From Nitrospiraceae bacterium (GTDB lineage Bacteria > Nitrospirota > Nitrospiria > Nitrospirales > Nitrospiraceae): a stretch of DNA of 53,581 nt. Position 1 is the first letter of the stretch. Each line of letters starts with the position of its first letter. The notes beneath the pieces are model-generated. The model worked only from the letters and a program-made list of their open reading frames with translations, was not told the origin of the DNA and did no database searches. The stretch lies in the NCBI GenBank assembly GCA_919902505.1, contig CAKKRE010000029.1, forward strand, positions 1-53,581, given 5' to 3'. The translations under genes and the position numbers were made by a program. Shown here piece by piece: positions 1-41,511 of the stretch.

Positions 1-32
1 TTCGGAATGGCGGCCACTGCCCCTCTGACCAT

Positions 33-55
33 CAGTCATGAATAATGCGGGCTAG
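33..55 (+). repeat. right-end remnant of the MITE-like repeat (family A)
   Basis: The stretch CATGAATAATGCGGGCTAG matches the right terminus of the complete copy at 39508-39688 with one base changed. The rest of the element would lie upstream of the window or is degraded. It ends in CTAG, which on the minus strand provides the TAG stop (52-54) of the coding fragment beside it. Confidence 0.6.
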
Positions 56-35183: not shown

Positions 35184-35582
35184 GGGTGTTTCTTTTGCAC
35201 GGAAACCGTCGGTCGATACGTAAGCACTTTAGCTCGGATTATTCATGAATGCCGTCGCGAGGCGTTCGAGGCGGAAGCCCGCCGAGGCTACTCGCACGTG
35301 AGGCCGAACGAGAACAGCCTCGCCGGGCGAGAGGATCGGACGCCGGAGCAGGCATTCATGAATAGTCCGGGTTAGGCTATGGGCTGTATCGGACAAGAGG
35401 AGAAGAACCTCGATGAAGAAGGGGCATGGAGGACGTGTCTCTACGTATTGTGAATCCCCCCGGTCTCCGGCGAGGCCCCGGTCCGGTTGCCGGATCTGTC
35501 CCATGTTCGGGTTGGGAAGGTTAAATGGTGCCCAGCAATATCGAGAGGATAGGATGTGAGTCCCCTTCGGTATGAAGGGGGT
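35184..35582. other. gap holding the MITE-like element
   Basis: About 400 bases between the degenerate HD-GYP gene and the RuBisCO-like gene, both on the minus strand. More than a third is repeat A1. The rest has no gene with a ribosome binding site, and it must hold the promoter of the HD-GYP gene. Confidence 0.4.
35229..35375. repeat. MITE-like element, family A, copy A1 (147 bp)
   Basis: Bounded by TTAG at 35229-35232 and TTAG at 35372-35375. The inverted ends match CCCGGAYTATTCATGAAT with one mismatch at the left. It matches copy A2 (39508-39688) in opposite orientation over its whole length, except that A2 has 34 extra bases. No coding frame of its own is credible. Non-autonomous element, see findings. 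Confidence 0.75.
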
Positions 35583-36758
35583 TCAGGGGGATGCGGATGT
35601 CTCTGCTTCGACAAGACGAAGAAAATCCAAACAGGCAGAGCGGATGTGTGTCGGCTCTCGTCGTAGGTCGCTGCCAAGAATAAAGACGAGGTCTGAACCG
35701 TAGAGGGTGACCATCTCGCGAATGCGCGACGCGGTCATTCGTCCTGCGGCGGTCGGGAGGATGGGTGGGCAGCCGCCGAGCGTTCGTCGGCACGCCGTGG
35801 CAATCTGACGACAATCCTGTTCCGATATCGGATAGTTCAGGCCATAGGTTGGGTAGATGGTGATATCGGCGCCGGCTAGCCTCGGGAGAAGACCGAAGAG
35901 AACCGCAGGAGCGATGCCGCTGTCCGACGTCACATAGTGGCTCCCGAGAAAGTCCGGATGCGCGATGAGGGGCAGCGACAATGAGGACGGCTGAGCCAGG
36001 GAAGCCAAGGCGTCAAAGCCTGTCAGGCCGGGACAGAGCAGGAGTGCGCCCGCGCCCGCCTGCGTTGCCTTGGCGGCCTGTTCCGTGAGAGAGGGCCAAG
36101 GGCCGGAAACATGCGGCGCATAGAGACACCGTTTTCCGGTCTGGCGCGAGGCCTTGGCGACGGCTTCGGCGCAACGTGCGACCCGCTCTTCGAATCGACA
36201 GAAGGGGTGATCGCGCAGACTCTGGTCGTCCTTGATCAGATCAACCTCACCCAGGGCAAATTCGTGGGCCAGTTCAGCCAGCTGCTGCGGAGAATACCCG
36301 AGCGGCTTCAGCACCGCGCAGATTAACGGACGTCGGGGTACCCGCAGCAGGTCGCGGAGGCCCCGCGAGCCGAATCGAGGCCCCGTCAATTGGGAGACGA
36401 CCGCATCGGGCAATGAGAGGTCCGTCACGCGGATGTGTCCTTGCAGGCCGGCCATGCCGATGATCATGTGAAGGAGCGCGCTCATGGTCCCGTCGAGGAG
36501 TTCAACGGGGAAACTGACCACTGCGCGGTGAGATTCGGGGGTGAGCGCCTCGAGCTGACTCACTCGGCCCAGAAGCTGATCCCGAATCGGTCCGGAGGGA
36601 ATGACATGATCGGCGGCTTCAACGGTCTGGTCGATACAGAGCAGGTCTGCCCGCCTGCGTGCATCGGCGGCCGAACCGTGGAGACGATACTCCACTGAAA
36701 AGCGCTCTCCTGAAAACTGGAGGCCGGTACTCCGGCCTGAACTGTTCGGCATGTCCAT
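35583..36758 (-). CDS. RuBisCO-like protein (form IV type)
   Basis: A 391-residue RuBisCO large-subunit homologue, shorter than the usual 410-470. Landmarks: VLKPLG (K151, equal to K175 of plant RuBisCO) and EVDLIKDDQ with K176, D178 and Q179 at the positions of K201, D203 and E204. Thus the Glu metal ligand is Gln. There is no loop-6 Lys, and the Arg after the H267 equivalent is Pro. It cannot be a carboxylase. Form IV proteins act in sulfur or methionine-salvage-type enolase or isomerase steps; the role here is open. An ATG two codons later (36752) fits AAGAAGAG better. No salvage genes are adjacent. Confidence 0.9.
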   Translation of the reverse strand: MDMPNSSGRSTGLQFSGERFSVEYRLHGSAADARRRADLLCIDQTVEAADHVIPSGPIRDQLLGRVSQLEALTPESHRAVVSFPVELLDGTMSALLHMIIGMAGLQGHIRVTDLSLPDAVVSQLTGPRFGSRGLRDLLRVPRRPLICAVLKPLGYSPQQLAELAHEFALGEVDLIKDDQSLRDHPFCRFEERVARCAEAVAKASRQTGKRCLYAPHVSGPWPSLTEQAAKATQAGAGALLLCPGLTGFDALASLAQPSSLSLPLIAHPDFLGSHYVTSDSGIAPAVLFGLLPRLAGADITIYPTYGLNYPISEQDCRQIATACRRTLGGCPPILPTAAGRMTASRIREMVTLYGSDLVFILGSDLRREPTHIRSACLDFLRLVEAETSASP

Positions 36759-38761: not shown

Positions 38762-39511
38762 ATGAAATCAACGCAATGGTTCCTCGCCGCGTTCTTGTTG
38801 AGCTGTTCATTGTTCGAGGCACATCATTTCGTTGCATCGGCAGCCGAACCGGCTCCCAGCGCCGCCAAAGCTCCGGCCGCATCGACCGAGGCCAAACAGG
38901 AAGAGGGGAAAACCGAGTTCTATGTCGGTGTTTATCTGCAGGGAAGTCGGCCACTGAATCGTCCGGTCAGACTGCAGGAGGACCCTTTCGCGAATACCGA
39001 CGTGCAGGGCGGGTTAGGAGGCGGTTTGAAAGTCGGGATTTTTCCGGCGTTCGCCGGCCGGTTCGTCGGGTTGGAAGCGGACCTGTCCGGACTCGATGGA
39101 AAGGTCAATGCGCCTTCGGCCACGACGGGCGGTGTGACGAGGAGCGCGAATTTCCGTCTCCAGTCCATCAATGTCATGGCGAATGTCTTGCTGCGCTACC
39201 CCGGCGAGACGATTCAACCGTATATCGGCATCGGTGCAGGGTTATCCGGAGGGTTTGCGCGGGATTTGAATCTCCAGCACAGCACTATCGGCACGGTCCA
39301 TGAGAATGCCGCCGACGGCGCCTTCGCCTATCAGTTTCTCGGCGGGATGCGCGCCAACGTCACGGAGCGCATGTTCCTCTTCACGGAATACAAATATTTT
39401 GTGGCGAATTATCAGTGGGAGAGCGAATTCTCAAACGGGTCGCGCGGCCCATCATTCACGCTGAACTATCGGGCTCATATTATCTCTGGCGGCATCGGCT
39501 TCACCTTCTAG
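38762..39511 (+). CDS. outer-membrane beta-barrel protein
   Basis: A 249-residue protein with AGGAG before its ATG and a signal peptide (FLAAFLLSCSLFEAHHFVASAAE). The mature part starts with an Ala/Pro/Lys linker, then alternating amphipathic strands (EFYVGVYLQGS, GGGLKVGIF, VGLEADLSG, YIGIGAGLSGGF, MFLFTEYKYF). It ends IISGGIGFTF with the aromatic terminal residue needed for outer-membrane insertion. An OmpA/OprF-barrel-like eight-strand fold is likely. Its TAG stop is the first flank of MITE copy A2. Confidence 0.8.
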   Translation: MKSTQWFLAAFLLSCSLFEAHHFVASAAEPAPSAAKAPAASTEAKQEEGKTEFYVGVYLQGSRPLNRPVRLQEDPFANTDVQGGLGGGLKVGIFPAFAGRFVGLEADLSGLDGKVNAPSATTGGVTRSANFRLQSINVMANVLLRYPGETIQPYIGIGAGLSGGFARDLNLQHSTIGTVHENAADGAFAYQFLGGMRANVTERMFLFTEYKYFVANYQWESEFSNGSRGPSFTLNYRAHIISGGIGFTF

Positions 39512-39688
39512 CCCGGACTATTCATGAATCCCTGCTCCGGCGTCCGATCCTCTCGCCCGGCGAGGCTGTTCTCGTTCGGCCTCCTCGACGGACTGCCAGT
39601 ACGCCTGCGTCGGCCTTACGTGCGAGCAGCCTCGGCGGGCTTCCGTCTCGAACGCCTCGCGACGGCATTCATGAATAATCCGGGCTAG
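39508..39688. repeat. MITE-like element, family A, copy A2 (181 bp)
   Basis: CTAG at 39508-39511 and CTAG at 39685-39688 flank an element with inverted ends CCCGGACTATTCATGAAT and ATTCATGAATAATCCGGG. The element is in opposite orientation to A1. It contains AGGCCGA twice, 34 bases apart; A1 has this motif only once. The left CTAG includes the stop codon of the outer-membrane protein gene. Confidence 0.75.
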
Positions 39689-39925
39689 CAGGCTGTTGAG
39701 AAAGCCCGCCGGCAGCGTTCTCGCATCGTTCAGACCCTCAACGTACCCCCATGGGAAAAGAGCCTGTCCCGGCAGGCGGGAGGTGGGCGGGTAAGAACGT
39801 AACGCCTCGGCTCAGGACACGGCCGGCTCACCGCCTCGCCGACGTCCGCAAGCGTGACGCTCATTATTTTTCGCGTCGCGGACCTCGCTGCGGCCTTGCT
39901 GGACGGCCTTTTTTGCGCATCCTGC
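39687..39925. repeat. family B palindromic repeat, long copy B3
   Basis: AGCAGGCTGTTGAGAAAGCC at the left and GGACGGCCTTTTTTGCGCATCCTGC at the right are inverted copies, with about 190 bases between. The interior includes GCGTTCTCGCATCGTTC. It overlaps the end of MITE A2 by two bases, so one element is probably nested in or next to the other. The rest of the gap up to 40185 has no supported gene. Confidence 0.6.
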
Positions 39926-40185
39926 GCTATTCTGATACCAACATGCCACGTGAGCTGATCGCGACGTATTCTGTGAAAGCGAGTTTTTCCGCAGCCTGCT
40001 GAATCTTCTGCCAATTCAGAACGCCGCTTCCTCCTGTGCGAGGCACGCTCCCACCCCCTTGCCCCTGCTGGGTTCCAGGCGGGGCCTCGTGTTGCGCCCC
40101 TTTCAGTTCTGATGCTCCTGGGCAGACAAAACTCCCGACGCCTGATTCTCGCGCTTGCGGTTCTCCATGGGAGAGGCATAAGATA

Positions 40186-41511
40186 ATGCAACGTCCGCCC
40201 GTTAACCTGGCATTCGGAGGAAGAGCAGTGTTCTGGGACAGGCGGCATCCTTCGGAGAAACCAGAGCGCCTCTGTTCATTCTGCGGCAAACGTCAGGGCG
40301 CAGTTCAATCCCTCATCACCAGTCCCGAGCCGTACAGCTGCCATTCTTGCCGTACGTCTGCTCCGCTCTTGATCTGTGAGGAATGCATTCAGCGCTGCTC
40401 CCAGTCTGTGGCCAAGGACAAGAACGGCGGTGCGCAGGGTTCATCCTCCTCCCTGCCGCTCGTGGTCCCCAAGCCGACCGACATCAAGGCGACGCTCGAT
40501 GAGTTCGTGGTCGGGCAGGATCGCGCCAAGAAAGTCCTCTCGGTCGCGGTCCACAATCACTACAAACGGATTCTGAACCGGGAACGGCTCAAACACGTCG
40601 ATCTCCAAAAGGGCAACATCCTGATGATCGGATCGACCGGGACTGGGAAGACGCTCCTGTCCCAGACCCTGGCCCGCATCCTTCATGTGCCCTTCACCAT
40701 CGCCGATGCCACGGCCCTGACGGAGGCCGGGTACGTGGGAGAGGATGTCGAGAACGTTGTCCTCAAGCTGCTTCAGAGCTGCGAGTACGACGTCGCGCGC
40801 GCCGAGACCGGCATCATCTACATCGATGAAATCGACAAGATCAGCCGCAAGTCGGAGAACCCTTCACTGACGCGGGACGTGTCGGGCGAGGGTGTGCAGC
40901 AGGCGCTCCTGAAACTGGTCGAAGGGACGGTCTGCAATGTGCCGCCGAAAGGCGGACGGAAACATCCCGACCAAGACTACATTCGTGTGGATACGACCAA
41001 CATTCTGTTCATCGCCGGGGGGGCGTTCGTCGGGTTGGATCAGATCATTGGTCAACGAGCGATGCCCAAGCGGCTGGGGTTCGGAGCGGTGCGTGCCGAC
41101 CACGAAATCGACGGTCACACGGACATGCTGCGTTTCGCGCAGTCCGAGGATTTACTGAAATTCGGGCTCATTCCCGAGTTTGTGGGCCGATTCCCGATCC
41201 TGACTACTCTGGCGGACCTCGATGTACCGGCGCTTATTCGCGTGCTGACCGAGCCGCGCAACGCGCTGGTGAGGCAGTATCAGGCCCTCTTTGAGATTGA
41301 AGGGGTCGAGCTTGAGTTTACTGATGCCGCCGTGAAAGCCGTCGCCCGCCGGGCAGCGGTCATGAAAACCGGAGCACGGGCGTTGCGCACGATCCTCGAA
41401 GAAGTGATGCTGGACCTGATGTATGAGATCCCAGCGTCGGGCGGGGTGAAATCCGTCGTGATCACCGAAGAGGTCATCGCCGGAATCGGGGCGCCGCAAA
41501 TTCTTACTTGA
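40186..41511 (+). CDS. ClpX-type AAA+ unfoldase, atypical zinc finger
   Basis: A 441-residue ClpX homologue. The N-terminal zinc finger is unusual: [15 protein letters not shown] is followed by an extra CHSCRTSAP segment before ICEECIQRC. The AAA+ core is complete: Walker A GSTGTGKT, Walker [11 protein letters not shown], the GYVGEDVE pore loop, sensor VGRFP and the C-terminal [18 protein letters not shown]. Start is either the ATG 40186 or the GTG 40228 (GGAGG seven bases ahead). No clpP or tig is next to it, unlike the usual clpX locus, so it is probably a second copy. Confidence 0.85.

Follow-up and report, generated by a model that had tools for sequence, protein, structure and literature searches.

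A MITE family of Nitrospira established on YTAR stop codons in excess over other non-coding YTAR sites

As most of a bacterial genome is coding, a mobile element depends on sites where insertion does no harm; att sites, terminators and the Tn7 site next to glmS are among the known solutions to this need. Palindromes close behind stop codons are known as REP sequences; family A, the MITE family described here, is likewise palindromic and found near stops, whereas REP sequences are not known to carry target duplications or to lie within the stop. QMITE2 of Coxiella burnetii, a MITE of 150-190 nt, occurs chiefly in intergenic DNA and 3' untranslated regions, with slight overlaps of C-termini, and its preference for insertion at 3' ends was called unexplained by the authors (PMC5896051, available part of the text). 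A review of prokaryotic MITEs, in its available part, notes that insertions favor intergenic DNA and mentions QMITE2 as a case in 3' regions (PMC10969869), and YTAR is given as the target of IS5 in the available part of PMC10359306. Targeting of stop codons by MITEs is not described in the available parts of PMC10969869, PMC5896051, PMC10359306, PMC2229807 and PMC3281130, nor in the titles and abstract openings that searches of the open literature gave. Family A is like QMITE2 in being a short MITE at gene 3' ends, but the duplications of QMITE2 are variable (7-11 nt) and its insertion can change C-termini (PMC5896051, available part), whereas A duplicates a 4-nt YTAR and leaves the protein unchanged. 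The 4-nt YTAR duplication is shared with IS5 (PMC10359306, available part), although the transposase linked to A by its ends is of IS1380 type.

The element A2 was found in a window of 53,581 nt, the whole stretch of DNA that was analyzed (Nitrospiraceae bacterium, contig CAKKRE010000029.1). The target gene (38762 to 39511, plus strand) encodes a secreted-looking protein of 249 aa and ends with Phe-TAG, the TAG being the insertion site. A2 (39512 to 39684, plus strand) is a near-palindromic family-A MITE of 173 nt with the ends CCCGGACTATTCATGAAT and CCCGGATTATTCATGAAT, flanked by a gene-side CTAG (39508 to 39511, plus strand), of which 39509-39511 is the stop, and by a far CTAG (39685 to 39688, plus strand), which is in frame with the first copy (173 + 4 = 177 nt). 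The sequence at 39506-39512 reads TTC TAG C, with the Phe codon at 39506-39508; A2 landed in a pre-existing CTAG, and the gene-side copy regenerates the stop, leaving the protein unchanged. The original prediction of an insertion exactly at the TAG stop was thereby confirmed. Orthologues in 24 loci of the same genus, including that of A2, end at the same Phe and stop. The accompanying assignment of the protein as an outer-membrane barrel is unproven: the 249-aa sequence had no match in Pfam or PDB, and its single-sequence structure model had a pLDDT of 34.5. A known RNA family for the A2 region was dropped as a candidate, since an Rfam search of 39400-40050 gave 0 matches at E ≤ 1.

Directly after the stop of the empty site begins a second palindromic repeat, R (39689 to 39998, plus strand; ends CAGGCTGTTGAGAAA and CAGGCTGCGGAAAAACTCG), which is unrelated to A. 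Relatives keep R-like sequence right after the stop of this gene, even behind a TGA (L317). A gene for a ClpX-like AAA protein (40036-41511) lies immediately downstream of A2 and R. The window also contains A1 (35233 to 35371, plus strand), a 139-nt deletion derivative of family A that is intergenic, is not at a stop and has TTAG flanks at 35229-35232 and 35372-35375; it adjoins a minus-strand gene for a RuBisCO-large-like protein (35583-36758).

Comparison with relatives lacking the insertion, which the original prediction had proposed, showed the same stop position in the five nearest TAG orthologues (L313, L314, L315, L316 and L318), all without A at the stop. For 14 further genes of the same genome with A at the stop, the C-terminal 70 residues were searched in three relatives, and 10 genes were usable. 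The stop position was the same in 29/30 comparisons (10 genes in 3 genomes), 25 of them without A. Two of the 10 genes had TGA in all three relatives, which indicates that their stop became TAG in this lineage before the insertion. In unedited sequence around 105 A-size copies, the coding ORF ended at the gene-side target copy in 61 cases, inside the element in 4 and at the far copy in 0.

Family A has the ends CCCGGAYTATTCATGAAT and a length of 173 nt (130/142 A-size copies), and a sister family, B, has mostly CCCGCATTATTCATGAC/G ends and a length of 188-189 nt; the target is common to both, and both are similar in age. In the genome of the window, 130 initial candidates yielded 40 scored near-full family-A copies at ≥91% identity, and 145 element ends (family-B ends included) were detected against 0 in the control. 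Element-bearing contigs with names belong to Nitrospira. The flanking 4-mers were identical in 53/77 paired copies of A and B in this genome, and all 53 were YTAR (CTAG 36, TTAG 8, TTAA 6 and CTAA 3); YTAG as the only target, as first supposed, is therefore too narrow, and YTAR (CTAG, TTAG, CTAA, TTAA) takes its place. Being short, multi-copy and without a transposase of its own, with inverted ends and a target duplication, family A is a MITE. An integron attC cassette site, which is an integrase recombination site without target duplication, was ruled out by the direct 4-nt duplications, including the non-palindromic TTAG and CTAA.

The genus contains full ISs of about 1.7 kb with CCYGNATWATTCAYGA-like ends, whose transposase matches PF13701 (up to E 1.6e-126). 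Four of them (L342, L343, L351 and L354) have ends similar to those of A and YTAR-type flanks; the duplications are identical in 3/4, L354 being flanked by one CTAA and one TTAG. An IS fragment in the genome of the window matched PF13701 with 143.5 bits and NF033539 with 140.4 bits, the latter below the 180-bit cut-off, and its transposase fragment appears to be IS1380-like. No full-length IS bearing exactly the ends of A was found in this search. Judged by ends and target, family A seems to resemble the IS1380-family ISs of the same genus, similar ends and YTAR duplications being common to both; the ISs carry a transposase and are at stops in 0/4 cases, whereas A has none. We infer that A is mobilized by an IS1380-type transposase. 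An assignment to the IS5 family was rejected, since the transposase of the ISs with similar ends is of PF13701/IS1380 type.

To compare occupied sites with the background, which consisted of all other YTAR sites of the same sequences, we used a home-made gene caller, a dicodon model that had these sequences as its training set. Across 10 Nitrospira genomes, with orthologous insertions taken once, family A lay exactly on a stop in 57/95 independent non-coding copies, with 4 more copies in CDS; of the non-coding YTAR sites left unoccupied, 177/902 were stops (p 7e-16). The excess over chance expected under the original prediction was thus borne out, and the per-site frequency of family A on YTAR stops is about six times that on non-coding YTAR sites elsewhere. 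Family B, with the same target, showed no excess (5/22; A vs B, p 0.002). In the genome of the window alone, 25/43 non-coding A copies (short derivatives included), 4/22 B copies and 97/517 background sites were on stops, and in five other genomes the values were 31/50 for A and 56/264 for the background. A within-gap test in the genome of the window gave no excess (expected 27.8, observed 29), its power being low, as the hit site is counted too and few sites are available in many gaps. Outside Nitrospira, 1/6 usable copies from distant genera was at a stop, the sample being six copies only.

Left out of the ten-genome count were 26/176 paired copies whose flanks had decayed, 4 short elements and 3 odd ones. 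Since the filter for decayed flanks could favor stops, all 142 A-size copies were also counted regardless of flanks and with sites not emptied; a coding ORF ended exactly at a flank in 78. The result was unchanged at gene-score cut-offs of 8, 20 and 30, and caller-free frames (≥150 codons ending at TAR) gave 53/99 for A, 5/24 for B and 279/1742 for other YTAR sites.

The excess took the form of a spike at the stop. Relative to sites 1-100 nt downstream, A was distributed 57:11 and the background 177:167 (p 4e-7). In counts that were not deduplicated, A held 70/250 YTAR sites at stops, 1/85 in the final 60 nt of genes, and 5/64, 6/71 and 3/78 at +1-30, +31-60 and +61-100, respectively, while the occupancy by B was flat across the same distance classes. 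The CCCGGACTATT end faced the gene in 38/54 independent stop copies (38:16, p 0.004), a bias seen in each of three genome sets (17:5, 22:8 and 11:4) and in both tandem (21:9) and convergent (18:4) gaps; at non-stop sites in tandem gaps, the orientation leaned the opposite way (6:16).

The explanation that we propose has three parts. A2 is a copy of a non-autonomous MITE that takes YTAR as its target and leaves these 4 bases on both sides; a bias towards gene ends would already act on insertion or on the first steps of establishment; and survival would act as a second filter removing copies inside genes, where A was rare (4 hits vs 829 unoccupied CDS sites). Taken as a whole, with A2 as an IS1380-like MITE, we consider this explanation evenly balanced between right and wrong. 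The more specific proposition, that transposition is directed to stop codons and oriented by the gene, with a 4-base target that holds the stop and a duplication that regenerates it, is tentative. Against biased insertion stand the low occupancy of gene ends upstream of the stop (1/85, as above) and the position of the full-length IS1380-type ISs (0/4 at stops), and we know of no way in which a DDE transposase could recognize a stop. A stop codon that serves as the target motif and is duplicated on insertion would be a simple new solution for harmless entry and, if true, directed insertion would give the element built-in entry into gene-dense genomes without protein damage.

Selective retention might instead account for the excess, with A inserting at random YTAR sites and its hairpin, when at a stop with the gene-facing end first, being useful and kept; the supposed uses are at the mRNA 3' end, in translation termination or in insulation. 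This is a doubtful but serious alternative. It accords with the orientation at stops in tandem and convergent gaps, with the folding of the element, which is far better than that of shuffles (z -7.0 for A2), and with the insertions shared between genomes, 6/9 of which are at stops. However, the share at stops showed no trend with age from the youngest to the oldest copies (8/14, 9/14 and 5/9), the youngest already being mostly at stops, and hairpins were no better kept there, with 3.74 and 3.28 broken pairs per copy at stops vs 3.19 elsewhere. The benefit would also need to vanish 1-100 nt downstream. As for a selected protein tail, the frame leading from the stop to the far target copy is open in 79/91 A copies (58 codons, in the orientation preferred at stops), but variation is lowest at third codon positions, which gives no sign of such selection; the forward 58-codon frame within A showed no coding pattern, and no ORF was found to end at the far copy, so that a used C-terminal extension through the element was rejected. 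On the strength of the orientation, the absence of an age trend, the similar ages of A and B and the hairpins being no better kept at stops, we lean to biased insertion over slow retention, while strong early selection remains compatible with the data. The exactness of the spike, the orientation bias and the lack of the effect in family B despite its identical target make sensing of gene ends versus hairpin selection testable.

The original prediction offered stops simply as safe landing sites. Under this reading, insertion picks YTAR sites at random, and the surplus at stops reflects the lack of harm done there; this agrees with the restoration of the stop by the duplication, with the rarity of insertions in genes and with the stop share of family B, close to its background. 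Neutral safety predicts an equal per-site rate at stops and at harmless non-coding YTAR sites, and this fits B but not A, given the counts of A against the background, against downstream sites and against B reported above. The rate of A off stops was nearly uniform, even in gaps without an upstream stop (13 hits vs 230 unoccupied sites), and the flat rate means that loss of harmful insertions does not explain the spike. The restored stop and the excess over random YTAR thus stood, whereas safety alone is insufficient for the excess, which needs biased insertion or stop-specific selection; as a complete account, neutral safety is improbable.

That A was attracted to, or followed, copies of R already abutting stops is very unlikely. 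R is also YTAR-flanked, YTAR-preceded R ends occur at same-strand stops in 14/36 cases, and A2 has the stop on one side and R on the other; in six of the 14 stop cases the stop is shared with A, which led to their detection, and hence the stop enrichment of R itself is less certain. Against attraction, an R end (≤3 mismatches) lies behind the stop in only 9/52 single-stop A copies, 43/52 being without one, and 0/36 non-stop A copies are at R, although off-stop YTAR R ends exist. An artefact of gene calling or of the construction of empty sites, conceivable with a home-made gene caller, is hardly credible, because the three score cut-offs, the caller-free frames, the unemptied sites (78/142) and the orthologues all agree.

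Occupied and unoccupied YTAR stops differed in a preference for CTAG and a preceding C; no other sequence, structure or gap feature distinguished the occupied stops, weaker position differences failing multiple testing, and downstream terminators and gap length were alike in the two groups. At non-stop sites of A and B, C/T was favored before YTAR and G/A after it. Stop sites had C after YTAR in 62%, and unoccupied YTAG stops already had C there in 25/50. An extended target motif was rejected as the cause, as no motif explains the spike.

Among non-standard elements, those with GGA-type ends were at stops in 4/8 cases (A1 counted), and those with GCA ends in 3/21 non-CDS cases. Two elements of family-B length (L183, 7166-7354; L184, 3019-3206) bear a GGA-type end on one side or on both, and the two elements are at stops, which hints at the ends, not the interior, as the carrier of the stop preference. 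Minimal 26-bp versions, in which the two ends join to form a near-perfect palindrome with YTAR-type copies on either side, were present at L188 (3025-3050), L200 (3074-3099) and L258 (1277-1302), 1/3 at a stop.

The partial copy at the window start (1 to 51, minus strand), supposed to show the same arrangement as A2 on the other strand, proved to be an IS end rather than family A. It has a CCCGCATTATTCATGAC terminus, is cut by the contig end, is flanked by CTAG at 52-55 and would be of IS1380 type by its closest relatives. The stop there is not convincing: no called gene ends at CTAG 52-55, and the minus-strand frame ending there has 25 aa from a TTG start, with 36 codons open. Of three IS ends examined at contig starts in this genome, one abuts a 487-codon frame (L090); that of the window does not. 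The window, which is contig C29 of this genome, begins inside the IS end, whose terminus reads leftwards, and the interior of this end has full-identity matches in the genome only at C27:1 and C29:1. Since the same end starts C27 and similar ends start C25, C59, C75 and C80, this assembly is probably interrupted by a multi-copy IS.
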